A stretch of DNA of 64,000 nucleotides from Kribbella sp. CA-293567 (GTDB taxonomy: Bacteria > Actinomycetota > Actinomycetes > Propionibacteriales > Kribbellaceae): NCBI RefSeq assembly GCF_027627575.1, contig NZ_CP114065.1, positions 4,836,001 through 4,900,000 on the forward strand, in the 5' to 3' direction. Below are positions 33,114 through 60,686 of the stretch, one piece after another. Every line of letters begins with the position of its first letter. The first letter of the stretch is position 1. A model generated the notes under the pieces. The model searched no databases. It saw only the letters and a program-made list of their open reading frames with translations, and was not told the origin of the DNA. Both the position numbers and the translations under genes were made by a program.

Positions 33114-33117
33114 GCCA

Positions 33118-33300: not shown

Positions 33301-33321
33301 CCACGCAACCATTTTGCGTGG
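33301..33321. promoter_or_regulatory. 8-bp inverted repeat upstream of second beta-helix gene
   Basis: CCACGCAA (33301-33308) and TTGCGTGG (33314-33321) form a perfect inverted repeat with a 5-base spacer, about 95 bases before the start of the second beta-helix gene. It sits where an operator would be expected. The remaining bases of the 300-base gap (33114-33413) show only a terminator-like hairpin and a leader shared with the first gene. Confidence 0.4.
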
Positions 33322-33413
33322 TGCCACGACTACGGCAAGTAGTAGTCTTCTGGGGAAGGCCGCACCAGGGGGGTGCAAAGAAAGACAAGTACCCAACCCC
33401 CGGAGGGTCGTCA

Positions 33414-42362: not shown

Positions 42363-42399
42363 TGGGCAACTTTCGGGGTCGGCTGGTGTGGGGGAACTG

Positions 42400-43941
42400 A
42401 TGGGACGCGGGTTCACGTCGGCGGGGGCTCTTCTGCTCGCCGGACTTTTGCTGGCCGGGTGCAGCGATGATCCGGCGGCGCCGGTGGCTGGTGAGTCGAA
42501 GACAGCCGAGCCGACGGTCGCCGTGCCGACCGAGGTCCCGGCGGCGGCGAAGACGAAGCTGGGCGCCACCGGACCGGCGACCGCGCCCAAATGCGTGGGC
42601 GTCGCGATCCCGGTCGGTGCCGAACCGCAGCAGGTGATCGATGCCAACCCGACGGCCAAGATCTTCTGCTTCGAGAAGGGGCTGCACCGGATCGCTCGGG
42701 CCATCCGGCCGACCGAAGGCTCGACCCTGGCGAGCAGCGAGGGCGCGGTACTGACCGGGTCGGTGCAGCTCCGCGGCTGGCAGGCCGAAGGTGGCCGGTG
42801 GGTGGTGCGCGGCGTACTGCCGGCGGCGTACAAGCTGAAGGGGAAGTGCGAGGACGAGAAGACCAACCCGTGCCAGCGCGGCGAGCAGGTCTTCGTCGAC
42901 GGCGCGCACCTCACCCGGGTGATGAGCTTGGAGGCACTGAAGCCGGGAACGTTCTTCGGCGACTACGCGGCCAACGCGGTCCACCTCGCGGACGATCCCG
43001 CCGGGAAGGCCGTCGAGATGTCGAGGACGCGGGCCGCGATCGAGGTGTCGGCGCAGGACGTGACCGTCAGCGGGCTGACGATCGAGCACTTCGCCAGCCT
43101 GCCACAGGGCGGCGCGCTCGAGGCGGGCACCGGGTGGAAGGTGGTCGCCAACGAGGTCCGCTGGAACCACGGAGTCGGCGTGATGGTGATCCAGGGCGAC
43201 CGGGCCACGGTCAGCGGCAACACCATCGCCGACAACGGGCAGCTCGGGATCGGGCAGTACGACTCGGCCGACGGCAAGCTCACCGGCAACCTGGTGACGC
43301 GCAACAACACCGACGGCTTCTGGATCGCCGACTGGGAGTCCGGTGGGATCAAGTCCACCCGGTCGTCCGGTGAGGTGTCGGGCAACGACATCGTCGCCAA
43401 CCGCGGCATCGGGATGTGGAGCGACATCGCGGAGTACGACCGGGTGATCGCCGGCAACCGGATCCGGGACAACGCGGCGGACGGGATCCGGTACGAGATC
43501 AGCTACCAGGCCACCATCCGGGACAACGTTGTCGAGGGCAACGGATTTGGGACCGGGCGGGGATCGGGGCCGAGCCTGTGGGACGGCGGCGGGATCAACG
43601 TGAACACCTCGGCCGGGGTGACGGTGGCCGGCAACCTGATCAAGGGCAACCGCAACGGGATCGCGATCCAGTCCCGGACCCGCGGCGACGGGCCGCGCGG
43701 GCCGTACGTGCTGGCCGACGTGCTGATCGAGGCCAACCAGGTGGTGATGGACGAGCGGACCGCCAGCACCGGAGTGGTCGAGAACAAGGAGTCCCCCGCC
43801 AAGGACGGCGCGATCCGGTTCAGCCGGAACAGCTACCGGATCGGGGACCGGCAGGCGCAGCGGTTCGCCTACCGGGGCGCGACGATGACGTGGGAGCAGT
43901 GGCAGGCAGCCGGCTTCGACCAGGACAGCGTCACCGGCTAG
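42400..43941 (+). CDS. Right-handed beta-helix lipoprotein, paralogue 3
   Basis: Lipoprotein of 513 residues, anchored by the lipobox LLAGC (Cys about 23) after a short signal peptide. The mature part carries the same parallel beta-helix domain as the genes at 31374 and 33414, with NNTDGFWIADWESGG, SLWDGGGINVNTSAGVTVAG and SIQSRTRGDG-like segments. The linker is short (about 40 residues) compared with the paralogues. ATG at 42400 after GGGGA; a GTG at 42388 is in frame. It is probably on the outer face of the membrane. Function unknown. Confidence 0.86.
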   Translation: MGRGFTSAGALLLAGLLLAGCSDDPAAPVAGESKTAEPTVAVPTEVPAAAKTKLGATGPATAPKCVGVAIPVGAEPQQVIDANPTAKIFCFEKGLHRIARAIRPTEGSTLASSEGAVLTGSVQLRGWQAEGGRWVVRGVLPAAYKLKGKCEDEKTNPCQRGEQVFVDGAHLTRVMSLEALKPGTFFGDYAANAVHLADDPAGKAVEMSRTRAAIEVSAQDVTVSGLTIEHFASLPQGGALEAGTGWKVVANEVRWNHGVGVMVIQGDRATVSGNTIADNGQLGIGQYDSADGKLTGNLVTRNNTDGFWIADWESGGIKSTRSSGEVSGNDIVANRGIGMWSDIAEYDRVIAGNRIRDNAADGIRYEISYQATIRDNVVEGNGFGTGRGSGPSLWDGGGINVNTSAGVTVAGNLIKGNRNGIAIQSRTRGDGPRGPYVLADVLIEANQVVMDERTASTGVVENKESPAKDGAIRFSRNSYRIGDRQAQRFAYRGATMTWEQWQAAGFDQDSVTG

Positions 43942-45239
43942 ATGTAGCGCTGCTTGACCGGTTTCAAGGGTGGTGGATTCGCCAGCGCTCTCAGGCGATC
44001 GGCGTCACAGACCGCGGCGGCGACCAGGAGGTGCAGGGTCATCGAGCTGAGGTCCGAGAGGCCGCTCTCGTTGAGCGAGGCAACCGTCACGTAGCCGAGC
44101 AGAAGGGCGCCGCTGGCCTTGACGTAGGGAGTCGGGGCCCGGAGGACCGAGGCCCAGGCGAGGATGAAGGCGACGCCGACGATCGCGACCGCCAGCAGGC
44201 CGGTCTCCCAGTAGAGGCTCAGCCAGCTGTTGTCGATCGCCATCACGTCGATGTCGCCCTCGCCCCGGCGGAGCAGCACCCGCTTGTTGCCCAGACCATG
44301 GCCGATGATCGCCGTCTGCAGGGAGACATCCTCGTCCAGCACGTACTGCCAGCTCGTGGTGCGACCGCTCAGGGAGCTGATCTGCTTGGTCCCCTGTCCC
44401 CGCAGCAGCCACGTCTGCAGCGACGGGACCACCAGGAACGCCAGCCCCAGCAGGGCCGGCACCGAGATCGACGCTATTCGGCTGAACCAGCTCTTCCGGG
44501 TCAGGAAGAGGGCCAGGACCAGACCGACGGCGACCGCGGCGGCCGCCGTCCGGGTCCGGCTCGCCGCGACCAGGACGACGCCGATGGTGATCATCACCCC
44601 GGCCGGGATGAACGAGATCTTGCGGGCGAAGAAGGCGATGATCGCCAGCCCGAGCAGGATCGCGCCGACCTCGCCGACACGCGGTGGCAGCATCGGGATG
44701 AGCACGCCCTGCAAGCGGTAGCCGGTGCCGAACGAGCTGAGCGGCCGCCAGGCCACCGAGGGCCGCCAGACCACGCTGAGCACGACCGTGAGCGCCAGCA
44801 GCAGATGCGCGAACAGATGCGCCCGGATCAGCCGCTCCGGCACCCGGATCAGCGGCCGCCACAGCATGAACAGCAGGATCAGGCCGATCATGAACCGCGC
44901 GAGCCGCAGCAGCGGGCCGCCCGGATCCGCGAGCAGGAAGGCCGTGGCCGTGGCGAAGAGCGCGTAGGCGACGTACAGGGTGGTGGTGGGGCTCGCGCGG
45001 GTCCGGAAACCCGGCTTGGTGGCGGCCAGGCAGATCAGGAAGATCGCGCCGAGCAGGACGCCCTTCATCAGGCTGTTGGTCGAGCCCGTCGACCCCTGCG
45101 GCGCGGCGGCCCGTGAGGACCAGGGCTGCACGCCGAGCACCAGCAGGCACCACATGGCGAGCCAGAGCCAGGTCGCCTTGCCTGTCTCCGCGTCCTCGGT
45201 GGTCCCCGGCACCGGTGGTGCCGTCAGCGTCATCGTCAC
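43938..45239 (-). CDS. O-antigen ligase / Wzy-type polymerase family membrane protein
   Basis: Polytopic membrane protein of 433 residues with about ten helices and a large external loop before GHGLGNKRVLL and DNSWLSLYWETGLLAV, the O-antigen ligase/Wzy_C pattern. It is predicted to polymerise lipid-linked repeat units outside the membrane in a Wzx/Wzy pathway. Start is the GTG at 45239 or the in-frame ATG at 45233. Its 3' end overlaps that of the convergent beta-helix gene by 4 bp. It lies next to the chain-length protein gene. Confidence 0.85.
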   Translation of the reverse strand: MTMTLTAPPVPGTTEDAETGKATWLWLAMWCLLVLGVQPWSSRAAAPQGSTGSTNSLMKGVLLGAIFLICLAATKPGFRTRASPTTTLYVAYALFATATAFLLADPGGPLLRLARFMIGLILLFMLWRPLIRVPERLIRAHLFAHLLLALTVVLSVVWRPSVAWRPLSSFGTGYRLQGVLIPMLPPRVGEVGAILLGLAIIAFFARKISFIPAGVMITIGVVLVAASRTRTAAAAVAVGLVLALFLTRKSWFSRIASISVPALLGLAFLVVPSLQTWLLRGQGTKQISSLSGRTTSWQYVLDEDVSLQTAIIGHGLGNKRVLLRRGEGDIDVMAIDNSWLSLYWETGLLAVAIVGVAFILAWASVLRAPTPYVKASGALLLGYVTVASLNESGLSDLSSMTLHLLVAAAVCDADRLRALANPPPLKPVKQRYI

Positions 45240-45264: not shown

Positions 45265-46911
45265 TCAGCGCAACGGCGGTGCGGCGGTCTCGGCCGGAGT
45301 GAAGTTGAGCGGGATGCCCAGCGAGTCGTCGTGCTTCGAGCAGCCGATCAGTACGACGCCGAGCACCGGCGCGCCCGCGAACTTCAGCGCGGCCGTGAGC
45401 CGGGTCAGGTCCGTCTCCTTGTCCTGACCGACCTGCACGACCAGCACCGACGCGTCGACCGCCGCGGCCAGTGGCGTGATCCCGTGCCGGCCGACCGAGG
45501 CCGGGCCGTGGATGACCACCGAGTACCCCGGGGGCAGGTCGGCCACGATCCCCGGCACCAGCGACGGGCCGATCGCGAGCGCGGACTCGTCGTGGCTCAG
45601 GCCGGGCGGCAGCACGTAGAGATCGGCGACCGTGCCAGGGCGGAACAACTTACGGGCCCGCACCGCGCGGGTGGCGGCCGGCTCGTTGACCAGATCGGTG
45701 AGGCCCTCGTGATCGGTCAGGTGCGACAACACCGGCGTACGCCGCAGGTCGGCCAGGACCAGCAGCGTCTCGCGACCGTCACGGGCGCTCGCCTCTGCCA
45801 TCGCCAGCGCGATACCGGCCGAGTTCGGCGTGGGCGAGGCCGAGACGACCAGCAGTGCACCGGCGCCGCTCGAGCCGATCCCCTTCGGGTTCAGCTCACG
45901 GCGTGCCAGCGCGCCACTCGCCTCGGTGCCCAGCGCGGTGATCTCGGACGGTCCCAGCTGCGGGGAAGCGCGAAGCCAGAAGCGCAACCGGAAGCCGAGC
46001 CGGTAGCGCCGGTGGCCGATCGCGGCCGTGATGACCGGGGCGCTCGCTGCCCGCGCGGCCTGGTCGCGAGTCAGGATGAACGGGCTCAGATGGGTACTGA
46101 CCAGGGCCAGGCCGAAGCCGAGCACCAGCCCGAGGATCGCGCCGACGGTGATGTCGCGCATCACCAGCGGCGACGACGAGGCGGTGTCCTTGGTAGCGGG
46201 CGTGACGAGCGTGCTGCTCGCGCCGACGCCGGTCAGCGCCTTGTTCATGGCGGATGCCTCGTCGGCGGCCTGCCGGGCCTCCGACGCGAGCCCGACCCGC
46301 TGGTCGCGCAGCGAGCTGGCTTCCTGGGTGTCGCCGCGCCCCTGGGCGTCGGCGATCTGCTCGAGCAGGTTCTTCGACTGGAGATTGGCGCTCTTGGCGC
46401 GGTCGGTGGCCTGGCTGGCCAGCGTGACCAGCAGCGTCTTGGCCTCGGTACTGCGCTGGGCCAGGTAGATCTGGGCGATCGCGTTGGCCCGGCGGACGGC
46501 CTCGTCGGCGGTCGGGCCGTCGATGGTGATCAGGTAGGCGTTGTCGGTGACCGCCTTCACCCGGGTCACTCCGGCCAGCGCCTGGACCGAGTCGTCCGTG
46601 GTCGGCATCTGCAGGAACTTGGCGACCTCGCGCAGGATCTGCGGGCTCGCCATCACCCGGGCCTGGGTCTCGGCCGGCAGGTCGAGGCCGAGTGGGCCGC
46701 TCTTGTCGCCACCGGTCGGCAGTTTGCCGACCAGGGCCGGCGGGACCGCCGGCCCGATCACGACCTGGCTGGACGCGGTCCAGCGCTCGGTCTGCGACAG
46801 TGAGAAGAACGCCGAGCTGCCGATGCCGAGCAGCACGCAGCCGATGATCAGCCATTTGTGCCGCAGGAGTGACTGTGCGGTGTCCCGCCAGACCACAGTG
46901 CCCGGTTCCAT
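45265..46911 (-). CDS. Wzz-like chain-length protein with a degenerate kinase-type domain
   Basis: Polysaccharide co-polymerase of 548 residues. Two membrane segments (about 14-37 and 240-262) flank an extracytoplasmic Wzz region with coiled coil. The cytoplasmic part (about 340-520) aligns in layout with bacterial tyrosine kinases, but the P-loop is SASPTPNSAGIALAMA, with no GK[ST] lysine, and the second Walker segment reads LLVLADLRRTP. No C-terminal tyrosine cluster is present. So it is probably not an active kinase and may only control chain length. The ATG at 46911 follows GGGGG. Confidence 0.85.
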   Translation of the reverse strand: MEPGTVVWRDTAQSLLRHKWLIIGCVLLGIGSSAFFSLSQTERWTASSQVVIGPAVPPALVGKLPTGGDKSGPLGLDLPAETQARVMASPQILREVAKFLQMPTTDDSVQALAGVTRVKAVTDNAYLITIDGPTADEAVRRANAIAQIYLAQRSTEAKTLLVTLASQATDRAKSANLQSKNLLEQIADAQGRGDTQEASSLRDQRVGLASEARQAADEASAMNKALTGVGASSTLVTPATKDTASSSPLVMRDITVGAILGLVLGFGLALVSTHLSPFILTRDQAARAASAPVITAAIGHRRYRLGFRLRFWLRASPQLGPSEITALGTEASGALARRELNPKGIGSSGAGALLVVSASPTPNSAGIALAMAEASARDGRETLLVLADLRRTPVLSHLTDHEGLTDLVNEPAATRAVRARKLFRPGTVADLYVLPPGLSHDESALAIGPSLVPGIVADLPPGYSVVIHGPASVGRHGITPLAAAVDASVLVVQVGQDKETDLTRLTAALKFAGAPVLGVVLIGCSKHDDSLGIPLNFTPAETAAPPLR

Positions 46912-47090
46912 CCGGTGGTCCCCCAATTCCTCACTCAGCGCACTCCGACAGACAGGACTGCGCCGCTCCCCCGCCCGGCCGACCGGGCTTCCCGAGCCCT
47001 CACGGTGACCGGATCCCAACACTGATCACCACTGGCGACCGGATCCTTGCCGGGCCCAGGATATAGGCATCGGGTGGGCACCGAAACCGG

Positions 47091-47331: not shown

Positions 47332-49539
47332 ATGAAGAAGAGATGGCTTTTCGCGCGCCTGGGCACGGCCGGCGCGCTGGTGGCAGCGGCCGGAGTGATG
47401 GTGCTGGCACCGCCGGCCCAGAGCATCGAGGCCTCGCTGTCGGCGCAGAACAGCCCGGTCTGGCAGACCAACGCCAGTGTCCAGGGCATCACCGTGGCCG
47501 CTGGGAAGGCCTACGTCGGTGGACGGTTCACCAGCGTCCGCCCGCCGGGCTCGCCGCTGGGCACCAACGAGGTCGGCCAGGCCTACCTGGCCGCCTTCGA
47601 CGCGACCACCGGCGACCTGGTCGCCTCGTTCAACCCGGTCCTCGACGGCCAGGTGTACGCCGTGGCCGCCTCGGCCGACGGCTCGCGGGTCTTCATCGGC
47701 GGTGACTTCACCAACGTCAACGGCGTGACCCGCAACCGGGTCGCCGCCTTCGACACCGCCACCGGCGCGCTGGTGCCGAACTGGAAGCCCTCGGTCTCCT
47801 ACCGGGTCAAGTCGATCGCGGTCTCCGGCGACACCGTGTACTTCGGTGGCTCCTTCGGCCTGGTGAACGGCATCGACCGGCTCCGGCTCGCCGCCGTGAC
47901 CGCCGACCTCGGCACCTTGTTGCCCTGGGCCCCTTCCACCAACGGCGACGTGTACGCCGTGGACGTGGCCGACGACGGCTCCAAGGCCTACGCCGGTGGC
48001 CAGTTCAGCACCGTCAACGGCACCAACCAGAACACCGTCACCAGCCTCGACCCGGTGACCGGCGCGGTGCTGCCGTTCGCCGGCGCCTCCGCGGTCCCGC
48101 CGCCGAACGGCTCCTGCACCACCCGGGTCAAGTCGATCGACGCCTCGGGTGACACCGTCTACTTCGGCAACGGTGGTGACGGCGGTGGCTGCTTCGACGG
48201 CACCTGGGCCGTCGACATCGCGACCAACACGCTGAAGTGGAAGAACCAGTGCCTGGGCGCCACCGAGGCGGTCAAGATGGTGAACGGCTGGCTCTACAAG
48301 GCCTCCCACGCGCACGACTGCGCCTACAACGGCGCCGGCGCCTTCCCGCAGGGCTTCGGCTACCGCTTCCTGCTCGCCGAGAACCCGGCCGACGGCAAGA
48401 TCGGCCCGTGGTTCCCGAACACCAACGCCGGTCCGCCCACCGAGGTCGGCCCGCTGGCGCTCGCGACCGGCGGCTCGGACCTGTGGGTCGGTGGCGACTT
48501 CACCACCACCAACGGTGCCGGCCAGCAGGGTCTGACCCGCTTCACCAACGCCGGACCGGGTGCCGCTCCGGCCAAGCCGGCCAAGCTGCTGCCGTCCTCG
48601 GTCAAGGCCGGCGAGGTCCAGATCCACTTCCCCACCGTCGTGGACAACGACGACAGCACGCTGACCTACCGGCTGCTGAAGGGGTTCAGCAACACCACCA
48701 TCGCGACCTGGACCGCCACCTCGACGCCGTGGGACAAGCCGTGGCTGCACTACACCGACACCGACGTGACACCGGGTGAGGTGACCAACTACCGGGTCGA
48801 GGTGACCGACGGTACGACGACGATCCGGGGCAACTACTCCGATCCGCTCACGGTGGCGAGCGCCACCAGTACGGCGTACGACGAGATCATCAAGTCCGAC
48901 GGCCCGCAGGCGTACTGGCGGCTCGGTGAGGCGTCGGGCACGACCACCTCGACCGACTCCTCCGGCCAGAGCAACAACGGCACCTACAGCGGCATGACGC
49001 TCGGCAGCTCCGGCAAGGTGAGCGGCAACACGGCGGCCACGACCAGCTCGAGCAACGGCCGGATGGCCGGCGAGAAGGCCTACAGCATGCCGCAGCAGTT
49101 CACCGTGGAGGCCTGGTTCAAGCAGAGCTTCCTGCGCGGTGGCCGGATCGTCGGCTTCGGCAACTCCAAGACCGGCAACAGCAGCTCCACCGACCGGATG
49201 CTGTACCTGCGCTCCAACGGCCAGGTCACCTTCGGCGTCAACGACGGCAGTCAGCGCACCATCAACAGCACGTCGAACAAGAACAACAGCGCCTGGCACC
49301 ACGCGGTCGGCACCTACGACAACGGCGTCATGAAGCTGTACGTCGACGGGGTGCTGGCCGGCAGCCAGACGGTCGGTCAGGCCTCCCTCTACTACGGCTG
49401 GTGGCGAGTCGGCTACGACACCACCAACTCGTGGTCCGGTGGCGGCGCGACGCAGACCGGCATGGTCATCGACGAGGCGGCGGTCTACCCGTACGCACTC
49501 ACCGCCGGTCAGGTCCTGAACCACTACAACGCGGGCTGA
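47332..49539 (+). CDS. Secreted beta-propeller/LamG protein, paralogue 1
   Basis: Secreted protein of 735 residues: signal peptide (about 1-30), a repeat domain of WxVGGxF-like blades (QTNASVQGITVA, YVGGRFTSVRPPG, VFIGGDFTNVNG, VYFGGSFGLVNG) resembling delta-60/DUF5122 beta-propellers, then a fibronectin-like domain (about 415-515) and a C-terminal LamG-like lectin domain (about 520-735; YWRLGEASGTTT, FTVEAWFKQ, LYVDGVLAGS). A cysteine-containing motif, GNGGDGGGCFDGTW then NQCLGATE then SHAHDC, is conserved in all four paralogues. The best ATG is at 47332. Likely exposed on or released from the cell; ligand unknown. Confidence 0.85.
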   Translation: MKKRWLFARLGTAGALVAAAGVMVLAPPAQSIEASLSAQNSPVWQTNASVQGITVAAGKAYVGGRFTSVRPPGSPLGTNEVGQAYLAAFDATTGDLVASFNPVLDGQVYAVAASADGSRVFIGGDFTNVNGVTRNRVAAFDTATGALVPNWKPSVSYRVKSIAVSGDTVYFGGSFGLVNGIDRLRLAAVTADLGTLLPWAPSTNGDVYAVDVADDGSKAYAGGQFSTVNGTNQNTVTSLDPVTGAVLPFAGASAVPPPNGSCTTRVKSIDASGDTVYFGNGGDGGGCFDGTWAVDIATNTLKWKNQCLGATEAVKMVNGWLYKASHAHDCAYNGAGAFPQGFGYRFLLAENPADGKIGPWFPNTNAGPPTEVGPLALATGGSDLWVGGDFTTTNGAGQQGLTRFTNAGPGAAPAKPAKLLPSSVKAGEVQIHFPTVVDNDDSTLTYRLLKGFSNTTIATWTATSTPWDKPWLHYTDTDVTPGEVTNYRVEVTDGTTTIRGNYSDPLTVASATSTAYDEIIKSDGPQAYWRLGEASGTTTSTDSSGQSNNGTYSGMTLGSSGKVSGNTAATTSSSNGRMAGEKAYSMPQQFTVEAWFKQSFLRGGRIVGFGNSKTGNSSSTDRMLYLRSNGQVTFGVNDGSQRTINSTSNKNNSAWHHAVGTYDNGVMKLYVDGVLAGSQTVGQASLYYGWWRVGYDTTNSWSGGGATQTGMVIDEAAVYPYALTAGQVLNHYNAG

Positions 49540-49603
49540 CCGGAGACCGGCGGACCGGTGCACGCTGAGCGGACGATCGAAGTTCCATAGCACAAACTCA
49601 TAA

Positions 49604-49644
49604 CGCCGGTGGGAGCCTGCCTTCCAGTTGGTCTCCCACCGGCG
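49604..49644 (+). terminator. Hairpin between beta-propeller genes 1 and 2
   Basis: A perfect 12-bp inverted repeat (49604-49615 and 49633-49644; arm CGCCGGTGGGAG) follows the first gene and lies about 50 bases before the second start. Suggests separate transcripts. Confidence 0.65.
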
Positions 49645-49695
49645 CTAGATTTCGGACGCTCATGGACTTTCCCCCCGCCCAGTCCTAAGGAAGTT

Positions 49696-51213
49696 ATGAA
49701 GAAGCTAGTTCTGGCCGTTGTGACCGCTGCCGCCGTGCTCGGCGCGGCACTGATCCCCTCCGGTCCACCGGTGGAAGCAGCCACGTCCGGATTCGCCTCC
49801 GCCGTGTCCGCGATCAAGCAGCTGTCGTGGCAGACCAACTCCAGTGTCAACGCGCTGGCAGTCACCGGTAACACGGTGTACGCCGGTGGCCTGTTCACCC
49901 GGATCAGGCAGCCCGGCAAGCCGGCCGGTCAGGGCGAGGCGGCCCGGACCTACATCGCCGCGTTCAACCGCACCACCGGCGCGCCGCTGGCGTTCGCGCC
50001 GAAGCTCAACGGCGCCGTCTGGTCGATCGCGACCAGCCCGGACGGCAACTGGGTCGTCATCGGCGGTGACTTCACCACCGTGAACGGCATCAAGCGCAAC
50101 CGGATCGCGATGTTCAGCGTCAAGACCGGCAAGCTGGTCCAGGCCTGGGACCCGTCGGTGTCCACCCGGGTCAAGGCGATCGCGATCTTCGGCAACAGCG
50201 TCTTCTTCGGCGGCTCGTTCGGCCGCGTCGACAACGTCACCCGCAACCACCTCGCCGCCGTCCGGTTGATCCAGGGCGATCTGCTGCCCTGGAACCCGAA
50301 CGCCGACGACGAGGTCTACGCGATCGATCTGTCCGACAACGGCACCCGGGTGTTCGTCGGCGGTCCGTTCCGGCGGATCAACAACAAGGACCACTACTCG
50401 CTGGCGATGACCAACAACACCACCGGTGCCGCCTACACGATGCCCGCCGCGGCGGCCATCCCGAAGCCGACCGCGACCTGCACGACGCGGGTCAAGGACA
50501 TCGACACGCTCGGCAACAAGGTGTTCGTCGCGAACGGCGGCGACGGCGGCGGCTGCTACGACGGCGTACTGGCGGCCGACGCGACCACGGGCCAGCTGCT
50601 CTGGAAGAACAACTGCCTGGGCGCCACCGAGGCGATCAAGGCGATCGGGAACTGGGTCTACAAGGGCTCGCACGCGCACAGTTGCCCGGGCGCCTTCCCG
50701 GACGGCACCGGCACCCACTACCTGCTGGTGGAGAGCGCGATCAACGGCAACATCGGGCCGTGGTTCCCGAACACCGACGCCAACCAGAGCAGCACCACCA
50801 AGGTCGGCCCGCTGGCGTTCGCGTCCGGCGGCAACGACCTGTGGGTGGGCGGTGACTTCGTGCACGTCAACGGCAAGATCCAGCAGGGTCTGACCCGGTT
50901 CACCAACGCCGCGGGGGGCGCGGCGCCGGCGGCACCGAAGGTCCCGGCCGTTTCGCGCGCGGTGACCAACCAGATCGCTGTCCACTTCAAGGACAGCTAC
51001 GACCTGGACAACCTGTCCCTGACCTACAACGTGTTCCGCGGAGCGACGAACATCAGCTCGCAGAAGCTCACGACGTACTACTGGCAGCCGCGCAAGACGA
51101 TCATCGTGGTCGACAAGGGCGTCAAGAAGGGCCAGACGGTCAGCTATCACATCGAGATCCACGACGGGCGCAACATCATGAAGGGCCCGGCGGTCACGGT
51201 GAAGGTCCCGTAA
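49696..51213 (+). CDS. Secreted beta-propeller protein, paralogue 2 (no LamG)
   Basis: Secreted protein of 505 residues with signal peptide (about 1-27), the same blade repeats (VYAGGLFTRIRQPGK, VVIGGDFTTVNGIK, VFFGGSFGRVDN), the GDGGGCYDGV / NNCLGATE / SHAHSCPGAFPDGTG cysteine segments and a terminal fibronectin-like domain. It stops where the long paralogues continue into LamG. ATG at 49696 after AAGGAAG. Confidence 0.85.
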   Translation: MKKLVLAVVTAAAVLGAALIPSGPPVEAATSGFASAVSAIKQLSWQTNSSVNALAVTGNTVYAGGLFTRIRQPGKPAGQGEAARTYIAAFNRTTGAPLAFAPKLNGAVWSIATSPDGNWVVIGGDFTTVNGIKRNRIAMFSVKTGKLVQAWDPSVSTRVKAIAIFGNSVFFGGSFGRVDNVTRNHLAAVRLIQGDLLPWNPNADDEVYAIDLSDNGTRVFVGGPFRRINNKDHYSLAMTNNTTGAAYTMPAAAAIPKPTATCTTRVKDIDTLGNKVFVANGGDGGGCYDGVLAADATTGQLLWKNNCLGATEAIKAIGNWVYKGSHAHSCPGAFPDGTGTHYLLVESAINGNIGPWFPNTDANQSSTTKVGPLAFASGGNDLWVGGDFVHVNGKIQQGLTRFTNAAGGAAPAAPKVPAVSRAVTNQIAVHFKDSYDLDNLSLTYNVFRGATNISSQKLTTYYWQPRKTIIVVDKGVKKGQTVSYHIEIHDGRNIMKGPAVTVKVP

Positions 51214-51277
51214 CGGGGGCTGTCTGACCTCCCCGCCGCACCAGGCGGCGCGGAGGACATCCTTGAGGGGGGATGTA

Positions 51278-53467
51278 GTGAAAAAGGTGGGGATTCTAAC
51301 GCTGGGCGGTCTGCTGGTGGCAGCGTTGCTGTCACCAGCACCCGCGCAGGGCATCGGTGCTTCACTGTCGGCACTGCCGAGTCCGGTGTGGCAGACCAAC
51401 GCCAGCGTGCAAGGACTCGCGGTGGCGGACGGCAAGGCGTACGTCGGGGGGCGTTTCACCACGGTCCGGCCACCGGGGGCGGCAGCCGGCACCAGCGAGA
51501 CCGCGCGGACCTATCTGGCCGCGTTCAACCAGAGCACCGGTGCACTCGACACCGGGTTCAACCACGTACTGAACGGGATGGTGTGGTCGGTCGCGGCCTC
51601 CGCCGACGGCTCCCGGGTCTTCGTCGGCGGTGACTTCACCAAGGTCGACGGTCAGACCCGCAACCGGGTGGCGGCGTTCGACACCGCCACCGGCGCGCTG
51701 GTGTCCAACTGGAAGCCGTCGGTCTCCTACCGGGTCAAGGCACTCGCCGTCTCCGGCACCACGGTCTACCTGGGCGGCTCGTTCGGGCTGGTCAACAACG
51801 TCGCCCGGCCCCGGCTGGCGGCGGTCACCACGAGCACCGCGGCACTGCTGCCCTGGGACCCCCAGGCGGACAACGACGTGTACGCGATCGACGTGGCCGA
51901 CGACGGCAGCAAGGTCTATGCCGGCGGCAACTTCTCGACCATCGGCGGTACTTCGAGCTGGGCCGTGGCCAGCCTGGACCCGGCCGACGGTTCGCTGCAG
52001 CCGTTCGCGGCGGCCGCCGCGGTACCCGCGCCCAACGGCGGGTGCGTCTCGCGGGTGAAGGACATCGAGACCAGTGGTGACCGGGTGTACTTCGCCAACG
52101 CCGGTGACGGCGGCGGCTGCTTCGACGGCACCTGGGCCGCGGATGTTGCCTCCGGCAACCTGATCTGGAAGAACAACTGCCTGGGCGCGACCGAGTCGGT
52201 CACCGTCGTCGACGGCTGGCTCTACAAGGGCTCGCACGCGCACGACTGTGCCTACCAGGGCGGCAGCGGCTTCCCGCAGGGGCCGGGCCGGTTCCTGCTG
52301 ACCCAGAACCTCGACACCGGCGAACTCGGTCCCTGGTTCCCGAACACCAACACGGGCTCCCCCACCGCGGTGGGTCCGCTGGCCTCCGCGACCGGCGGCT
52401 CGGACCTCTGGGTCGGTGGCGACTTCACCACCGTCAACGGCTCCGGACAGCAGGGCCTGGCCCGCTTCACCAACACCGGACCGGGTGCGGCACCGGGCAA
52501 GCCGGCCAAGGTCGTGCCGGTCAGCTACAAGGCCGGCCAGGTCAAGGTGAACTTCCAGACCGTGCTGGACAACGACGACATCACGTTGACCTACCGGGTA
52601 CTCCGCAGCTTCAGCAACACCGTCGTCGCGACGTACTCGGCCGATTCGCGCTTCTGGAACCGGCCGTGGCTCTCCTTCACCGACAGCGGACTCACCCCCG
52701 GCTCGTCGCAGGTCTACCGGATCGAGGTGACCGACGGAAACAGCACGTTACGGGGTGACTACTCGGTCGCGGTGACTGTGGCCAGTGTGGACGCGCCGTA
52801 CGACCAGCAGGTGATGGCAGACGGCCCCACGGCGTACTGGCGGCTCGGGGAGGCCAACGGGACGGCCAACGCGACAGACTCGTCCGGCCAGAACAACACC
52901 GGCCCGTACTCCGGCGTCACGCTCGGGGTGCCCGGCGCACTGAGCAGCGGCGGCAACACCGCCGGTGACTTCGCCGGTTCGAGCCGGCTGATCGGGCAGA
53001 CCGCTGTCAGCCAGCCGCAGAACTTCAGCGTCGAGGCCTGGTACAAGACCACCTCCGGCAGCGGCGGCAAGATCGTTGGCTTCGGCAACAGCCCGAACGG
53101 AACCAGCAGCCAGTACGACCGGCACATCTACCTGCAGAACGACGGAGCCGTCGTGTTCGGCGTCTACGACGGTTCGACCAGGACGATCAGCTCGGCACCC
53201 GGCACCAACGACGGCCAGTGGCACCACGTGGTCGGCACCTTCTCGCCGGGTTCGCAGAAGTTCTACCTCGACGGGGTCCTGCTCGGCACCCAGAACGTGG
53301 CCGCCGCCGAGGCGTACACGGGGTACTGGCGGATCGGCGCCGACAACCTCAACGCCTGGCCGAACAACCCGTCCAGCGCCGGTGTCGACGGCACTCTCGA
53401 CGAGGTCGCCGTCTACCCGGTCGCGCTCGACGCCGACCAGGTCGTAACGCATTACGAGGCTCGCTAG
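51278..53467 (+). CDS. Secreted beta-propeller/LamG protein, paralogue 3
   Basis: Secreted protein of 729 residues with signal peptide, blade repeats very close to paralogue 1 (SPVWQTNASVQGLAVA, FVGGDFTKVDGQTRN, SFGLVNNVARP), fibronectin-like domain and C-terminal LamG-like domain (YWRLGEANGTAN, FSVEAWYKTT, FYLDGVLLGT). GTG at 51278 after GGGGGGAT. The SHAHDCAYQGGSG segment matches paralogue 1 more than 2 or 4. Confidence 0.85.
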   Translation: MKKVGILTLGGLLVAALLSPAPAQGIGASLSALPSPVWQTNASVQGLAVADGKAYVGGRFTTVRPPGAAAGTSETARTYLAAFNQSTGALDTGFNHVLNGMVWSVAASADGSRVFVGGDFTKVDGQTRNRVAAFDTATGALVSNWKPSVSYRVKALAVSGTTVYLGGSFGLVNNVARPRLAAVTTSTAALLPWDPQADNDVYAIDVADDGSKVYAGGNFSTIGGTSSWAVASLDPADGSLQPFAAAAAVPAPNGGCVSRVKDIETSGDRVYFANAGDGGGCFDGTWAADVASGNLIWKNNCLGATESVTVVDGWLYKGSHAHDCAYQGGSGFPQGPGRFLLTQNLDTGELGPWFPNTNTGSPTAVGPLASATGGSDLWVGGDFTTVNGSGQQGLARFTNTGPGAAPGKPAKVVPVSYKAGQVKVNFQTVLDNDDITLTYRVLRSFSNTVVATYSADSRFWNRPWLSFTDSGLTPGSSQVYRIEVTDGNSTLRGDYSVAVTVASVDAPYDQQVMADGPTAYWRLGEANGTANATDSSGQNNTGPYSGVTLGVPGALSSGGNTAGDFAGSSRLIGQTAVSQPQNFSVEAWYKTTSGSGGKIVGFGNSPNGTSSQYDRHIYLQNDGAVVFGVYDGSTRTISSAPGTNDGQWHHVVGTFSPGSQKFYLDGVLLGTQNVAAAEAYTGYWRIGADNLNAWPNNPSSAGVDGTLDEVAVYPVALDADQVVTHYEAR

Positions 53468-53475
53468 ATATACGG

Positions 53476-53508
53476 GGTGGGGCCTGCCTTCGACAGGCGG
53501 GTCCCACC
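53476..53508 (+). terminator. Hairpin between beta-propeller genes 3 and 4
   Basis: A 13-bp stem including two G-U pairs (53476-53488 with 53496-53508) starts nine bases beyond the stop of the third gene. Together with 49604-49644 it suggests that members of the array end their transcripts separately. Confidence 0.55.
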
Positions 53509-53575
53509 GCAGCCGGTGAGGGGTCACCGGACTTTCAAGGGGTGCCGGAGGGGTTCGGCACGACAGGGGGAAACC

Positions 53576-55078
53576 ATGCGTTTACGGAGGATGACTGCTG
53601 CGCTCGCCGCCGCAGGACTCGCGCTGGCCGTCGTGCCGGCGCTGCCGGCGACCAGTACCGGGGCTTCACTGACAGCAGTACCGGGGACGACCTGGCAGAC
53701 CGACGCGGCCGTGCTCGGTCTCGCGGTTGCCAAGGGCAAGGCGTTCGTCGGCGGCCGGTTCACCCGGGTCCGCCCGCCGGGCGCCGCCGCCGGCACCAAC
53801 CAGACCGTCCGGACCTACCTGGCGGCCTTCAACCAGACCACCGGGGCACTCGACACCGGCTTCAACCACACGCTGAACAACACCGTCTGGTCGATCGTCG
53901 CCTCGCCCGACGGAACCAAGATCTACATCGGCGGGGACTTCACCCGCGTCGACGGCCAGGTCCGCAACCGGATCGCCGCCTTCGACGCGACCACCGGGGC
54001 GCTGCTGCCGAACATCAGGCCCAACGTCTCCTACCGGGTCAAGACGGTCGCGGTCGGCGGCGACAGCCTGTACTTCGGCGGCTCCTTCGGCCTGGTCAAC
54101 AACGTCGCCCGCAACCGCGCGGCGGCGATCAGCACGGTCGACGGCAGCCTGCTGCCGTGGAACCCGAACGCCGACGCCGACGTGTACGCGATCGACGCAG
54201 CCGACGACAACTCCAAGGTGTACCTGGGCGGCACCTTCGCCAGGATCGGCGGCATCAGCCGCTGGGCGGTTGCCAGTGTCAACAACTCGACCGGGGCGCT
54301 GCTCCCGTTCGCGGCCGCCTCCGCGGTACCGCTGCCGAGCAGCCGGTGCACCTCGCGGGTCAAGGACATCGAGACGAGCGGCGACGTCGTCTACTTCGCC
54401 AACGCCGGTGACGGCGGCGGCTGCTTCGACGGGACCTGGGCGGCGAACATCGGCACCGGCAGCCTGATCTGGAAGAACACCTGCCTCGGCGCCACCGAAG
54501 CGATCACGATGGTCAACGGCTGGCTCTTCAAGGGCTCGCACGCGCACAGCTGCCCGGGTGCCTTCCCGGACGGCACCGGAGCACACTTCCTGCTCCTGCA
54601 GAACCCGGCGAACGGCAACCTCGGTCCCTGGTTCCCGAACACCAACGCGGGTCCGCCCACCGAGGTCGGTCCGCTCGTCTCGGCCACCGGTGGCTCGGAC
54701 CTGTGGGTCGGAGGCGACTTCACCAAGGTGATGGGAGCCAACCAGCAGGGCCTGACGCGCTTCAACAATCTGGGGGCGGGCGCCAAGCCCCTGGGCCCTG
54801 TGCTGCCGACACTGTCCAGTACTACGACCGGTCAGGTGCGGGCGACCGTCCAGACCTCCCTGGACAACGACGACATCACGCTGACCTACCGGCTGCTGCG
54901 GGGCGGCTCGAACACGGTGGTTGCCACCACGACGGCCAACTCCACCTTCTGGAGCCGCCCGACGGTGACACTGACCGACACCACGGCACCGTCCGGCACG
55001 TCGCAGCAGTACCGGATCGAGGTCTACGACGGCAACAACGTGGTACGAGGCGGGTTCGCCGGCATCACTGTGCGCTAG
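53576..55078 (+). CDS. Secreted beta-propeller protein, paralogue 4 (no LamG)
   Basis: Secreted protein of 500 residues. The N-terminal half (FNQTTGALDTGFNHTLNNT, GGSFGLVNNVARN) is closest to paralogue 3, while the SHAHSCPGAFPDGTGAHF segment matches paralogue 2, a mosaic consistent with gene conversion. It ends after the fibronectin-like domain with no LamG. ATG at 53576 after CAGGGGG. The last 14 bases overlap the convergent flippase gene. Confidence 0.85.
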   Translation: MRLRRMTAALAAAGLALAVVPALPATSTGASLTAVPGTTWQTDAAVLGLAVAKGKAFVGGRFTRVRPPGAAAGTNQTVRTYLAAFNQTTGALDTGFNHTLNNTVWSIVASPDGTKIYIGGDFTRVDGQVRNRIAAFDATTGALLPNIRPNVSYRVKTVAVGGDSLYFGGSFGLVNNVARNRAAAISTVDGSLLPWNPNADADVYAIDAADDNSKVYLGGTFARIGGISRWAVASVNNSTGALLPFAAASAVPLPSSRCTSRVKDIETSGDVVYFANAGDGGGCFDGTWAANIGTGSLIWKNTCLGATEAITMVNGWLFKGSHAHSCPGAFPDGTGAHFLLLQNPANGNLGPWFPNTNAGPPTEVGPLVSATGGSDLWVGGDFTKVMGANQQGLTRFNNLGAGAKPLGPVLPTLSSTTTGQVRATVQTSLDNDDITLTYRLLRGGSNTVVATTTANSTFWSRPTVTLTDTTAPSGTSQQYRIEVYDGNNVVRGGFAGITVR

Positions 55079-56318
55079 CCACCCGATGGGCTGCGATGGC
55101 GCGATGGGCTTCGTGCCACCACAGCAGCAGAGTGCAGAACGAAGCGACGGCAAGGCCCCAAGCCGCACCCTTGGGGCCTTCCAGGAAGGCTCCTCCGACC
55201 CCTGAGACGATCAGGACGATGGAGGAGACCAGACGGACCCGCAGGCCTCTGGTCGCGGCCGTCAGGGCACGCAGGATGGCAAAGGCACCCGCGTTGGAGG
55301 CTCCGAAGGCCTGCAGCAGGATGACCGGCACCAGCACGGTCCTGGCTTCGGCCCAGACGCCAGGACCGAGCAGTTCCCTACCGACCACCTCGGGCAGCAG
55401 CAGGAAGACCGCACCCCAGGCCAGCGCGCCTGCGCCGACACCCAGCGAGATCGCCAGGCCGACGAGCCACAGACGCCGGTAGGAGTGCTTCAGAGCCCGC
55501 GCGGCCTCCGGTACGGCGATCATCCGGATTCCCTGGTTCAGCACGTTCACCGGGCCCAGCAGGACCTGCGCGCCACGGATACCGGCCGTCGCGACCAGCC
55601 CCGCGGCGACGGTGATCCCCAGCATGTACACCTGGATCGTGCCGCTGACGGCCAGCATCTCCCCGACGTACTTCGGTGTCAGATCCCGGTGGCTCACCAG
55701 CCACTCCCGGATCAGCTGGCGCCGCGGTGCCACCCCTGCCTGGAACCGGCCCGCCACCGCGGCGATGACAGCTCCCAGGCCCCAGCCCAGCGTCAGCGAG
55801 AACGCCGTCACCGCGTCGGCCAGGTAGAGCCCGCCGAAGATCCCGCCCATCGCGAGCAGCCAGATCAGGTCGTTGAGAAAGGCTTTCTGGCCCTCCCCCA
55901 CGACGAAGAAGGCCCAGCGCCAGGCGTCCTGCAGCAGCAGACCGGGCAGCGTCACCGCGAAGGCGATCAGGACACCCTTGGACGGTACGCCGGGGAACAG
56001 CGCGATGGCCAGGCCGACCACCATGCCCATCAGGCCGGCGAACAGCGCGGTCGCCGTACTGGCCCGGACAGCTCGCTCCCAGGCCGGGCTGCGGTCGCCG
56101 GAGTGCCGGACCGACAGCGGCTCGGTGGCGACGGCGCGGGAGACGTTGAGGGCGATCGTGTAGCCGCCGAAGGCCAGCGCGTAGACACCGAAGTCGGCCA
56201 CGCTGCTGCTGCGCGCGATCAGCACGCCGACGGCCAGGTTGCTCAGGCTCGACAGCGCTTGATCGGCGAGCCCCCAGCTCGCCCGGCCGGCCGGCCCGGC
56301 CAGCCTCGACAGCTTCAA
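55065..56318 (-). CDS. Wzx-type polysaccharide flippase (MOP superfamily)
   Basis: Multi-spanning membrane protein of about 417 residues with 12 or more helices, of the oligosaccharide flippase/polysaccharide export type. It is predicted to move undecaprenyl-linked repeat units across the membrane for the nearby polymerase. The start is uncertain: I chose the TTG at 56318, whose bases overlap the WecG stop, giving LKLSRLAGPAGRASWGL; a longer frame upstream to 56426 would overlap the WecG gene by over 100 bases. Confidence 0.82.
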   Translation of the reverse strand: MKLSRLAGPAGRASWGLADQALSSLSNLAVGVLIARSSSVADFGVYALAFGGYTIALNVSRAVATEPLSVRHSGDRSPAWERAVRASTATALFAGLMGMVVGLAIALFPGVPSKGVLIAFAVTLPGLLLQDAWRWAFFVVGEGQKAFLNDLIWLLAMGGIFGGLYLADAVTAFSLTLGWGLGAVIAAVAGRFQAGVAPRRQLIREWLVSHRDLTPKYVGEMLAVSGTIQVYMLGITVAAGLVATAGIRGAQVLLGPVNVLNQGIRMIAVPEAARALKHSYRRLWLVGLAISLGVGAGALAWGAVFLLLPEVVGRELLGPGVWAEARTVLVPVILLQAFGASNAGAFAILRALTAATRGLRVRLVSSIVLIVSGVGGAFLEGPKGAAWGLAVASFCTLLLWWHEAHRAIAAHRVASAQ

Positions 56319-57079
56319 GCGACCGGCCGCGGCGGCTGACGCAGGATGCCGACCCCGAACCTCGGGATCCCCAGGACGTAGCGACGCCACAGCCGGCGCG
56401 GCTCCTTGTAGAGCCGGTAGCTCCACTCGAGACCGGCCCGCTGCATCCAGTCCGGCGCGCGGTCGAGCCGGCCGGTGTGGAAGTCGAAGGCCGCGCCGAC
56501 CCCGATCAGGATCGCCGCGTCCAGGCGGTCCCGGTGCTCGGCCATCCAGCGCTCCTGCTTCGGCGCGCCCAGCCCGATCCAGATGATGTCCGGCTTCGCC
56601 TCGTTCAGCCGGTCGACGATCTCGGCGTCCTCTTCGGCGCTCAGTGCCCGGTACGGCGGCGAGTAGACCCCTGCCACCTTCAACCCGGGATGCCGCGCGG
56701 TGAAGGTGTCGCGCAGTTGCTCTGCGACCCCGTCGGCGCCGCCGTAGAAGTACTGCGACCAGCCGCGTTGCTCGGCCTCGGCCATCACCCGCTCGATCAG
56801 GTCCGGCCCGCAGACCCGCTCCATCCGCTCGAAGCCGGCCTTCTTGCCGGCCCAGACCAGCGGCATCCCGTCGGGCAGCGTCATCCCCGACGTGTTGTAG
56901 ACCTTCGTGAGCTCACCGTCCGCCCGGGCGTGCAGCAGCGCGTTCATGTCCGAGACGCAGACCAGGTGCCGCTCGCCGGCGTCGATCCAGCGCGCGAACG
57001 TGCCGACGGTGTGGTCCATGTCGGTCACGCTGACATGGATCCCCAGCACGTCGACCCGGTCCTGCGTCGTCCCAGTCAT
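56315..57079 (-). CDS. WecG/TagA/CpsF-family glycosyltransferase (GT26)
   Basis: Glycosyltransferase of 254 residues that adds the second sugar to an undecaprenyl-linked primer. It has the family motifs CVSDMNALLHARADGEL, LPDGMPLVWAGKK, YFYGGADGVAEQL and WIGLGAPKQERWM. In this cluster it probably acts right after the WbaP-type transferase. Its ATG at 57079 lies four bases after the gmd stop. Confidence 0.93.
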   Translation of the reverse strand: MTGTTQDRVDVLGIHVSVTDMDHTVGTFARWIDAGERHLVCVSDMNALLHARADGELTKVYNTSGMTLPDGMPLVWAGKKAGFERMERVCGPDLIERVMAEAEQRGWSQYFYGGADGVAEQLRDTFTARHPGLKVAGVYSPPYRALSAEEDAEIVDRLNEAKPDIIWIGLGAPKQERWMAEHRDRLDAAILIGVGAAFDFHTGRLDRAPDWMQRAGLEWSYRLYKEPRRLWRRYVLGIPRFGVGILRQPPRPVA

Positions 57080-57082
57080 CGC

Positions 57083-58129
57083 TCAGTCCTCGCGGGTCAG
57101 CGCTGCGAGGTCGGCGTCCACCATGATCCGGACCAGCTCCGGCACGTGCACCTGGGCCTTCCAGCCCAGCTCGGCGTGCGCCTTCGAGGCGTCACCGATC
57201 AGCGAGTCGACCTCGGTCGGCCGCTCGTAGCGCGCGTCGTAGTCGACGAAGTCGTTCCAGTCCATCCCCGCGTGCTCGAACGCCAGCGCGACGAAGTCCT
57301 TGACCGAGTACGACGTCCCGGTGGCCACGACGTAGTCGCCCGGCTGGTCGTGCTGCAGCATCCGCCACATGCCCTCGACGTACTCCGGCGCGTAGCCCCA
57401 GTCGCGGCAGGCGTCCAGGTTGCCCAGGTAGAGCCGCTTCTCCCGGCCGAGCTTGATCCGCGCCACCGCCCGGGTGATCTTGCGGGTCACGAAGGTCTCG
57501 CCCCGGCGCGGGCTCTCGTGGTTGAACAGGATCCCGTTCACCGCGAACATGTCGTACGCCTCGCGGTAGTTGCGGGTCATCCAGTACCCGTAGAGCTTGG
57601 CCGCGCCGTACGGCGACCGCGGGTAGAACGGGGTTTCCTCGTTCTGCGGCGGCGGCGTCGCGCCGAACATCTCCGAGCTGCTCGCCTGGTAGAAGCGGCA
57701 GTTCAGGCCGATCATCCGGATCGCCTCGAGCAACCGGGTGGTGCCCATCCCGGTGGTGTCACCGGTGTACTCCGGCTCGTCGAAGCTGACCCGGACATGG
57801 CTCTGCGCGGCCAGGTGGTAAACCTCGTCGGGCTGGATCGAGGCGAGCAGCGTGACGAGGCGCGAGCCGTCGGTCAGGTCGCCGTAGTGCAGGAACAGGC
57901 GCTTGTCCTGCTCGTGCGGATCGGTGTAGAGGTGGTCGATCCGGTGCGTGTTGAAGGTGCTCGCGCGGCGGATCAGGCCGTGCACCTCGTAGCCCTTGCC
58001 GAGCAGCAGCTCGGCCAGGTACGAACCGTCCTGACCGGTGATCCCGGTGATCAGGGCCTTCTTCGCGGCGCCCGACTCCGGGCCTCCCGCGGCGTGCTCC
58101 GGTGCGTGGCCGCCAGACGTCGCGGTCAT
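57083..58129 (-). CDS. gmd: GDP-mannose 4,6-dehydratase
   Basis: Short-chain dehydrogenase-fold enzyme of 348 residues making GDP-4-keto-6-deoxymannose. It has the NADP motif [25 protein letters not shown], the SSSEMFG segment and the catalytic YGAAK motif. The ATG at 58129 overlaps the stop of the fcl-like gene by 4 bp. An N-terminal extension of about 20 residues is present. Confidence 0.95.
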
Positions 58130-59073
58130 CGGTCTTCCCTCCCGTTGGCGAGGTACCAGGCGTAGACACTGGCCACGCCCTCCTCGAGGTCGATACCGGG
58201 CTTCCAGCCCAGGGCGCCGAGCTTGCTCACGTCGAGCAGCTTGCGCGGGGTGCCGTCCGGCTTCGACGGATCGGTGCCGATGGCACCGGTGTAGCCGACC
58301 ACCTTCGCGATGATGCCGGCCAGGTCGCGGATGGACACGTCGGAGCCGACGCCGACGTTGATCGGCCCCGGCTCGTCGTAGTGCTCGAGCAGGTGCAGGC
58401 TGGCGTCGGCCAGGTCGTCCACGTGCAGGAACTCCCGCAGGGGTGTCCCCGTCCCCCACAGGACGACCTCGCCGGCGTTGCTCCGCGCCGCGTCGTGGAA
58501 GCGCCGGATCAGCGCCGGCATCACGTGCGAGCTGGTCAGGTCGAAGTTGTCGTTCGGCCCGTACAGGTTGGTCGGCATCGCCGAGATCCAGCGCAGCCCG
58601 TACTGCCGGCGGACCGCCTGGACCTGCATGATGCCGGCGATCTTGGCGATCGCGTACGCATCGTTGGTCGGCTCCAGCTCACCGGTGAGCAGGCTCGACT
58701 CCTTGATCGGCTGCTCGGCGAACTTCGGGTAGATGCAGGACGACCCGAGGAACAGCAACCGCGGTACCCGGGCGTCGAGCGCCGCGTCCATCAGGTTGAC
58801 CTGGATCCGCAGGTTGTCGCTGAGGAACTCGGTCGGGTGGTCGCGGTTGGCCAGGATCCCGCCGACCTTGGCCGCCGCGTCGATCACCACCTGCGGGCGG
58901 TGCTCGGCGAAGTACGCGAAGGTCTGGTCGCGGTCGCGCAGGTCGACCTCGGAGGAGGTCGCCCCGATCAGATCGGTGAAGCCCTCGGCCTGCAGTCTGC
59001 GCCAGATGGCCGAGCCGACCAGGCCGCGATGTCCCGCGACGTACACGCGGGCGTTCCGGTCGAGCCGGCTCAC
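58126..59073 (-). CDS. fcl: GDP-L-fucose synthase
   Basis: Epimerase/reductase of 315 residues converting GDP-4-keto-6-deoxymannose to GDP-L-fucose. Motifs: [31 protein letters not shown], and catalytic YAIAK. The GTG at 59073 has a GGGGGAG site five bases upstream; an in-frame ATG at 59085 overlaps the upstream stop and is an alternative. With gmd it gives the complete path from GDP-mannose to GDP-L-fucose, so the surface polymer probably contains fucose. Confidence 0.94.
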
Positions 59074-59084
59074 TTTCTCCCCCA

Positions 59085-60686
59085 TCAGTAGGCACCCGAC
59101 CCGCGGATCACCGCGCGGGCCGTCTTCCACAGGATCAGCAGGTCGAGCGTCATCGACCAGTTGTCCACGTAGCGCAGGTCGAGCACGACCGACTCCTCCC
59201 AGGACAGGTCGCTGCGGCCGCTGACCTGCCACAGGCCGGTCAGTCCCGGCTTGACGAGCATCCGGCGGGTGTCGTCGGCGGCGTACAGGGCGACTTCCCG
59301 CGGCAGCGGCGGGCGCGGGCCGACCAGGGACATCTCGCCGCGCAGCACGTTGAACAGTTGCGGCAACTCGTCCAGCGAGAACCTGCGCAGGATCCGGCCG
59401 AGGCCGGTGACCCGGGGGTCGTCGCGCATCTTGAACAGCATCCCGTTGCCGTCGCTGAGGGCGTGCAGCTCACCGAGCCGCTGCTCGGCGTCGACGTACA
59501 TGCTGCGGAACTTCAGCATCGAGAACTCCTCGCCGGCACGGCCGACCCGGCGCTGCCGGAACAGCACCGGTCCCTTGCTGGTCAGCCGGACCGCGACAGC
59601 CAGACCGAGCAGCAACGGCGACAGCATCGCGACCAGGACCAACGCGAGGATCCGGTCGAAGACACCCTTCAGCAGGTGCGGGCCGCCGCTGACCGACGGC
59701 CGCTCCAGGTGCAGCAGGGACAGCCCGGCAACCGGGCGGACCGAGATCCGCGGACCGGCGACCTCGATGATGCCCGGCGAGACGATCAGTTCGACGCCGC
59801 GTTGCTCCAGCGCCCAGGAGAGCCGCCGCAGCGACTGACCGGCGAGCTCGGGATCGGAGGCAACGGCCACGACGTCCACGGCGTGCCGGTCGACAGCCGC
59901 CATGATGTCGGCCTCGTCCAGCTCGTCGGGACCGAGCAGCAGGGCGTCGTGCTCCCGGTGCGGCCGGCCGTCACCGCGAGGACGGCAGGTGGCGACCACG
60001 CGGAAACCGTCCGACGGACGCTTCTCCAGGTGTTCGCTCAAGGTCGAGGCCTGGCCGTTGCGGCCGACGACCAGCACGCGGCGCATACAGCGGCCGCGGT
60101 ACCGGTGGCGGCTCAGGTCGCGGCGCAGACCGTACCTGAGCAGCAGTGCGAGCAGCACCGTGGCCGGGATCGCCAGCACGACGAAGCCGCGGGCGATCTC
60201 GCTCTTGGTCGCGTACGACACGATCGCGACGACCGCGGTCAGTCCGGCGCCGGAGCGCAGGATCGAGCGGAACTCGTCGGGCCCGGCGCCGAAGAAGCGT
60301 GGCTCGTAGCCCTTGGACATCGCGACCGCGGCGACCCATGCCAACGGCAACAAACTGCCGAAGACCAGGTAGGCGCCGCCGACCTGGTACCCGAAGCGGG
60401 TCAGCAGGGCGATCGAGACGCCGATCACGGCCGCGAGCAGATCACCGCCGAGCGCGGCCCAGCGATAGACCGCGACCCACTGCGGCTCGGTCAGCCGGGC
60501 CGAGCGCGGCACGATCGCGGGCACCGAGTCCGGCACCACCCAGACCGGCCGACGGCGGTCGAAGTACTCCGCCGGCGTCACGGCCGTCTGCAAGGTCGCT
60601 GATGGCATGCCTGTCGACGACAGGCCGGTAGTAATGGTCGCGTCCGTTGCGGACGCGGTTTCCCCCATGACGGCATGATCCGTCAC
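59085..60686 (-). CDS. Polyprenyl glycosylphosphotransferase initiating polysaccharide synthesis (WbaP/CpsE-type)
   Basis: Membrane enzyme of 533 residues that transfers a sugar phosphate to undecaprenyl phosphate. It has several N-terminal helices, a nucleotide-binding-like domain, then the bacterial sugar transferase domain (KGPVLFRQRRVGRAGEEF, MLKFRSMY, RRFSLDELPQLFNVL, LVGPRPPLPREV). The first gene of the wbaP-fcl-gmd-wecG-wzx group. Start taken as the GTG at 60686; an ATG further in is possible. The 319-base gap upstream (60687-61005) is probably its promoter region; no specific site can be defended there. Confidence 0.92.
   Translation of the reverse strand: MTDHAVMGETASATDATITTGLSSTGMPSATLQTAVTPAEYFDRRRPVWVVPDSVPAIVPRSARLTEPQWVAVYRWAALGGDLLAAVIGVSIALLTRFGYQVGGAYLVFGSLLPLAWVAAVAMSKGYEPRFFGAGPDEFRSILRSGAGLTAVVAIVSYATKSEIARGFVVLAIPATVLLALLLRYGLRRDLSRHRYRGRCMRRVLVVGRNGQASTLSEHLEKRPSDGFRVVATCRPRGDGRPHREHDALLLGPDELDEADIMAAVDRHAVDVVAVASDPELAGQSLRRLSWALEQRGVELIVSPGIIEVAGPRISVRPVAGLSLLHLERPSVSGGPHLLKGVFDRILALVLVAMLSPLLLGLAVAVRLTSKGPVLFRQRRVGRAGEEFSMLKFRSMYVDAEQRLGELHALSDGNGMLFKMRDDPRVTGLGRILRRFSLDELPQLFNVLRGEMSLVGPRPPLPREVALYAADDTRRMLVKPGLTGLWQVSGRSDLSWEESVVLDLRYVDNWSMTLDLLILWKTARAVIRGSGAY

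Follow-up and report, generated by a model that had tools for sequence, protein, structure and literature searches.

Four adjacent genes of Kribbella sp. CA-293567 encode secreted beta-propeller proteins from within a Wzx/Wzy polysaccharide locus, and we consider it fairly probable that they are exopolysaccharide-matrix proteins that work like Bap1 and RbmC of Vibrio. Because the array sits among genes for polymer synthesis and export, and relatives lie beside such genes in many actinobacteria, the proteins probably bind and organise the polymer. The host genome is a single contig of 7.6 Mb, of which we analysed one stretch of 64,000 nucleotides (the window). The four array genes are as follows:

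47332..49539, forward strand: gene 1 (slot L1, protein P0001), 735 residues; signal peptide, seven-bladed propeller (about residues 38-408), Fn3-like domain (about 415-505) and LamG domain (about 515-735)

49696..51213, forward strand: gene 2 (slot S2, protein P0002), 505 residues; signal peptide, propeller and Fn3-like domain, without LamG

51278..53467, forward strand: gene 3 (slot L3, protein P0003), 729 residues, GTG start; propeller, Fn3-like domain and LamG domain

53576..55078, forward strand: gene 4 (slot S4, protein P0004), 500 residues; propeller and Fn3-like domain

An earlier sequence-only reading of the window had described four adjacent, exported paralogues of these lengths, and the open reading frames, together with the identities of their products to P0001 (46% for P0002, 62% for P0003 and 58% for P0004), bear this out. 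The motifs GGGC[FY]DG, CLGATE (CLGATES in P0003) and SHAHxC are common to all four proteins. The Rax2 model (PF12768) exceeds its cut-off in each of them (29.4-34.2 bits versus 28.8), and the DUF5122 model (PF17164) matches all four, above its cut-off only in P0003 and P0004. LamG had been assigned to the first and third proteins alone; indeed, the Pfam family Laminin_G_3 (PF13385) matches P0001 (9.7e-20, 71.7 bits) and P0003 (4.8e-22, 79.2 bits) against a cut-off of 27.6 bits, and is absent from P0002 and P0004. AF2 models of P0001 (pLDDT 91.6, pTM 0.87) and P0002 (pLDDT 90.7, pTM 0.87) both contain seven blades and an Fn3-like domain, with a C-terminal beta-sandwich in addition in P0001. The predicted propellers align to solved seven-bladed propellers with Z about 32 and an rmsd of 2.0-2.3 A over about 275 residues. 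Genes 3 and 4 are expected to share this fold, since their products are 62 and 58% identical to that of gene 1. With the motifs found in all four proteins and propellers in both models, the blade repeats, conserved cysteine motifs and shared fibronectin-like domain of the earlier description hold as well. At the sequence level, a search of solved structures returned no relatives of P0001, and a profile search matched only LamG, Fn3 and negligible propeller entries there. All four proteins carry signal peptides that lack a lipobox cysteine, and neither a wall-sorting signal nor a C-terminal membrane segment was seen in any of them; release outside the cell is therefore expected.

The array is embedded in the following genes of the window:

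42388..43941, forward strand: right-handed beta-helix protein (Beta_helix, 5.2e-22) whose signal resembles a lipobox (LLAGC)

43938..45239, reverse strand: wzy-like polymerase/ligase (Wzy_C, 8.2e-09)

45265..47022, reverse strand: wzz chain-length determinant (Wzz, 3.1e-09), divergent neighbour of the array

55065..56426, reverse strand: wzx-like flippase, convergent neighbour of the array; without a Pfam match, called by position and conserved context

56315..57079, reverse strand: WecG/TagA/CpsF glycosyltransferase

57083..58135, reverse strand: GDP-mannose 4,6-dehydratase (GMD)

58126..59232, reverse strand: NAD-dependent epimerase (GDP-fucose synthase-like)

59085..60686, reverse strand: Bac_transf priming sugar-phosphate transferase, the only match at 1e-20 in the host genome

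Placement inside a Wzx/Wzy locus, between the chain-length protein and the flippase, was thus read correctly from the window, as wzz and the wzx-like gene flank the array and this context is conserved in Kribbella. We found the array in 35 of the 38 Kribbella genomes; wzz adjoins it in all 32 loci inspected and wzx in 31 of them. The exception, in genome G030, has foreign genes on the wzx side, where by eye we noted phenazine-biosynthesis-like genes (DAHP synthase, isochorismatase, anthranilate synthase-like and SDR; L118:188-4803) between the array and the expected place of wzx. The beta-helix gene adjoining the array is likewise conserved in the inspected Kribbella loci, and its product is a candidate glycan lyase or epimerase of the array locus. 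Altogether three right-handed beta-helix proteins are encoded on the wzy side of the array (window positions 31338-35141 and 42388-43941), and proteins of a similar kind recur near propellers in Arthrobacter and other actinobacteria. As to a phage origin, wzz, the sole locus gene compared, was without a close counterpart in phage records.

The three Kribbella genomes that lack the array (G014, G018 and G037) contain only distant relatives of its proteins (best E near 1e-36). The array-associated wzx had no match in these three, and the same search found it in three comparison genomes. All three keep the flanking genes DUF3043, pspA, Bac_transf and uxaC, between which lie another polysaccharide flippase and propeller proteins of about 960-1209 residues (stretches L161-L166 and L169); a Pfam scan of the G018 neighbourhood gave four large propeller proteins with PKD, and malectin in one. 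Given that conserved flanks enclose a different flippase and different propellers, the locus appears to have been exchanged together with its propeller set. Both propeller sets are found close together in G003 and G009, and positions suggest the same for G008 and G025. The co-loss with wzx, and the replacement of the array by another propeller set alongside another polysaccharide locus, point to the polymer itself as the partner of these proteins. They argue against adhesins or nutrient-glycan binders that face outward, toward plant or fungal glycans, and owe their place in the locus merely to the clustering of surface-interaction genes; such proteins would fit the variable lectin-like tails, the soil habit of Kribbella and the orphan copies away from the locus, and we regard this explanation as improbable.

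Outside Kribbella, the association with polysaccharide genes recurs. At E < 1e-40, relatives turn up in 82 of the order's 294 genomes, a count that includes Kribbella, and in 11 genomes of a phylum sample of 396. We compared homologue positions with every Bac_transf gene in 33 non-Kribbella genomes, which were chosen by strong hits and are phylogenetically non-independent, and found a homologue within 25 kb of the nearest Bac_transf gene in 28 of them, where 1.15 were expected; none of 200,000 simulations exceeded 9. The effect is nevertheless large and is seen in several families. With this linkage and the synteny kept in Kribbella, homologues do not lie mostly away from polysaccharide genes, and encoding within Wzx/Wzy loci is recurrent in Kribbella and beyond. 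A single 20 kb stretch of Arthrobacter ok362, for example, contains Bac_transf, wecG, wzx, wzz, wzy, a propeller-LamG gene, a beta-helix gene, gmd and an epimerase. The propeller module is constant and the tails vary: outside the genus they include LamG, CBM96, PKD and Fn3, to which the alternative Kribbella set adds malectin. Kineosporia and two genomes of the family f6 also have forms that lack LamG. A copy number of two to four might suggest chance neighbours or a non-functional expansion, but this is highly improbable, being already contradicted by purifying selection on all four genes (omega 0.11-0.31), by the genus-wide conserved position and by the linkage in other families.

That the proteins bind or organise the surface polymer, as the sequence-only reading had proposed, is thus a putative role supported by synteny, by the loss of the array together with wzx and by the recurrence of homologues near sugar-transferase genes in other families; the tie to polysaccharide synthesis is stronger than the window alone could show. 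In the mechanism that we favour, the array proteins would be released outside the cell, where the constant propeller and Fn3 module would bind newly exported polymer. The LamG tail found in genes 1 and 3 would bind a second ligand, which could be a further chain, the surface of the cell or a glycan from outside; the long forms would bridge or anchor the polymer, and the short ones would coat or cap it and form no bridges. We infer the polymer binding, the second ligand and this division of labour between long and short forms from the predicted fold, the export signal, conservation, selection and linkage. The tails, being of carbohydrate-binding or adhesive types, count in favour of a matrix role. 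Against it count that propellers serve many purposes, a shared fold being no proof of function, that LamG is often protein-binding, that an orphan relative of gene 2 lies far from polysaccharide genes in Kribbella, and that an invariant C...HxHxC site exceeds the needs of a mere scaffold.

This site is located in blade 6. Its residues C307, H326, H328 and C330 are unchanged in every one of 67 homologues, which range down to about 30% identity. The two histidines occupy the positions of the second G and the F of the GGxF motif, which is what most other blades have there. A further pair of cysteines, C262 and C287, is present together in 32 sequences and absent together in 34, with 1 discordant; from this co-occurrence and the invariance of C307 and C330, the conserved cysteine set is best read as two likely disulphides. 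The histidine pair is unusual and may form a ligand or metal site. Because of the invariant site, the main rival to a matrix role is that the proteins are enzymes that process the polysaccharide of their own locus, as a lyase, a hydrolase or a transferase; the HxH of blade 6 would then be a catalytic site or a metal site, and LamG would be a binding module. Propellers that use histidine and a metal occur in several polysaccharide lyase families, and in Foldseek the long form is matched best by glycosidases, AbnA and trypanosome sialidases, that combine a propeller with a LamG-like domain. However, the global TM-scores of these matches are low (0.2-0.3), so that only the domain types agree with the glycosidases and their arrangement does not, and by sequence none of the solved propeller enzymes was matched. 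Moreover, HxHxC is absent from the alternative-locus propellers scanned (L162, L167 and L168), and up to four copies per locus would be unusual for a single enzyme step. We therefore consider enzymes unlikely, and matrix proteins remain the reading that we prefer.

To the alternation of long and short genes the sequence-only reading had attached a history, the duplication of a two-gene unit, which finds no support in our trees. The four slots correspond to four separate, old paralogue lineages, each with 100% bootstrap, in a tree that leaves their branching at the base of the genus unresolved. In a wider tree gene 4 groups with the long genes (89% SH-aLRT), and gene 2 is closest to orphan copies outside the locus, one of them elsewhere in the host chromosome. 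A tree that joins genes 2 and 4 nonetheless passes the AU test (p 0.283), and duplication of a two-gene unit is therefore unsupported rather than disproved. Among the 35 Kribbella arrays (32 inspected and three counted from homologue search alone), slots L1 and S2 are occupied in all (with divergence in G031, where it affects gene 1), S4 in 20 and L3 in 5. The gene order is long-short in 14, long-short-short in 16, long-short-long in 1 and long-short-long-short in 4, so that the alternating arrangement is a minority state. In G002 the orthologue of gene 1 appears split across two frames (L112:7618-12504), probably along with that of gene 2, by a frameshift or a sequencing error. An orphan, LamG-less relative of gene 2 (G000:C1:5967044-5968474; L004, L007) lies far from the locus in most Kribbella inspected, and no locus genes were found within the 13-19 kb inspected around it in Kribbella genomes.

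Genes 1 and 2 are separated by a conserved element:

49590..49652, forward strand: 63 bases comprising CACAAnnTCATAACGC, a G+C-rich covarying hairpin and a GCGCTA element

It occurs at the matching place in 23 Kribbella arrays, with nearly invariant flanks; at 7 of the 12 predicted hairpin pairs there are changes on both sides that keep the pairing. The flank occurs once in the host genome. A search of Rfam with the hairpin returned no known RNA family, no sigma-70 promoters were found, and terminator-like sites were at chance level.

Only a few bacteria, most of them Gram-negative, have well-characterised matrix proteins that hold their exopolysaccharide together, and the linkage across Actinomycetota, if true, would supply named candidate matrix proteins for these bacteria. 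It would also offer a likely role for proteins now called DUF5122, delta-60 or LamG domain-containing, and it raises the question of whether each propeller set recognises the polymer of its own locus. We tentatively suggest, with rather less confidence than for the matrix role itself, that Actinomycetota may possess a general polymer-partner system. Each exopolysaccharide locus would have its own matched secreted propellers with exchangeable lectin tails, the set being swapped together with the polymer genes, as an independent counterpart of Vibrio Bap1/RbmC/RbmB; the disulphide-clamped HxH would be a polymer- or metal-binding centre. The literature searched does not describe a linkage of propellers and polysaccharide loci in actinobacteria, which is weak evidence, as most subscription journals lay outside the search.

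Among known proteins, the DUF5122/delta-60 (PF17164) and Rax2-type (PF12768) propellers have the same repeat type as the array proteins; these names denote repeats of unknown function, and we found no link between them and polysaccharide loci in the literature searched. The Rhizobium Rap lectins RapA2 and RapD are secreted proteins that bind the polysaccharide of the bacterium that makes them and affect the length of the chains (PMC9298526). In secretion and own-polysaccharide binding they resemble the role proposed here, but they have cadherin-like domains, use type I secretion and lack a propeller. The closest parallel in working is found in Vibrio cholerae, where the eight-bladed propeller of Bap1 and RbmC binds their own exopolysaccharide, VPS, directly, and the domains attached to it bind other targets (PMC10102183). 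A lyase predicted to be a parallel beta-helix, RbmB, is encoded in the rbm cluster as well (PMC11637428), and the beta-helix protein of the Kribbella locus may be compared to it. Like the array proteins, the Vibrio proteins are secreted, combine a propeller with lectin-type domains and are tied to an exopolysaccharide, with Fn3 modules in RbmA (PMC10102183, PMC11637428, PMC5605196). Searches of solved structures with phmmer and a profile gave no match to Bap1/RbmC or other solved propellers at E < 0.1; Bap1 and RbmC are also absent from the structural match lists, which are filled by WD40 propellers, so that this absence excludes nothing. The Vibrio proteins have eight blades and a beta-prism and belong to a Gram-negative bacterium, whereas those of the Gram-positive Kribbella have seven predicted blades and LamG, and polymer binding, shown for the former, is presumed for the latter. 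The likeness to Bap1 and RbmC is thus apparently one of working and not of membership.
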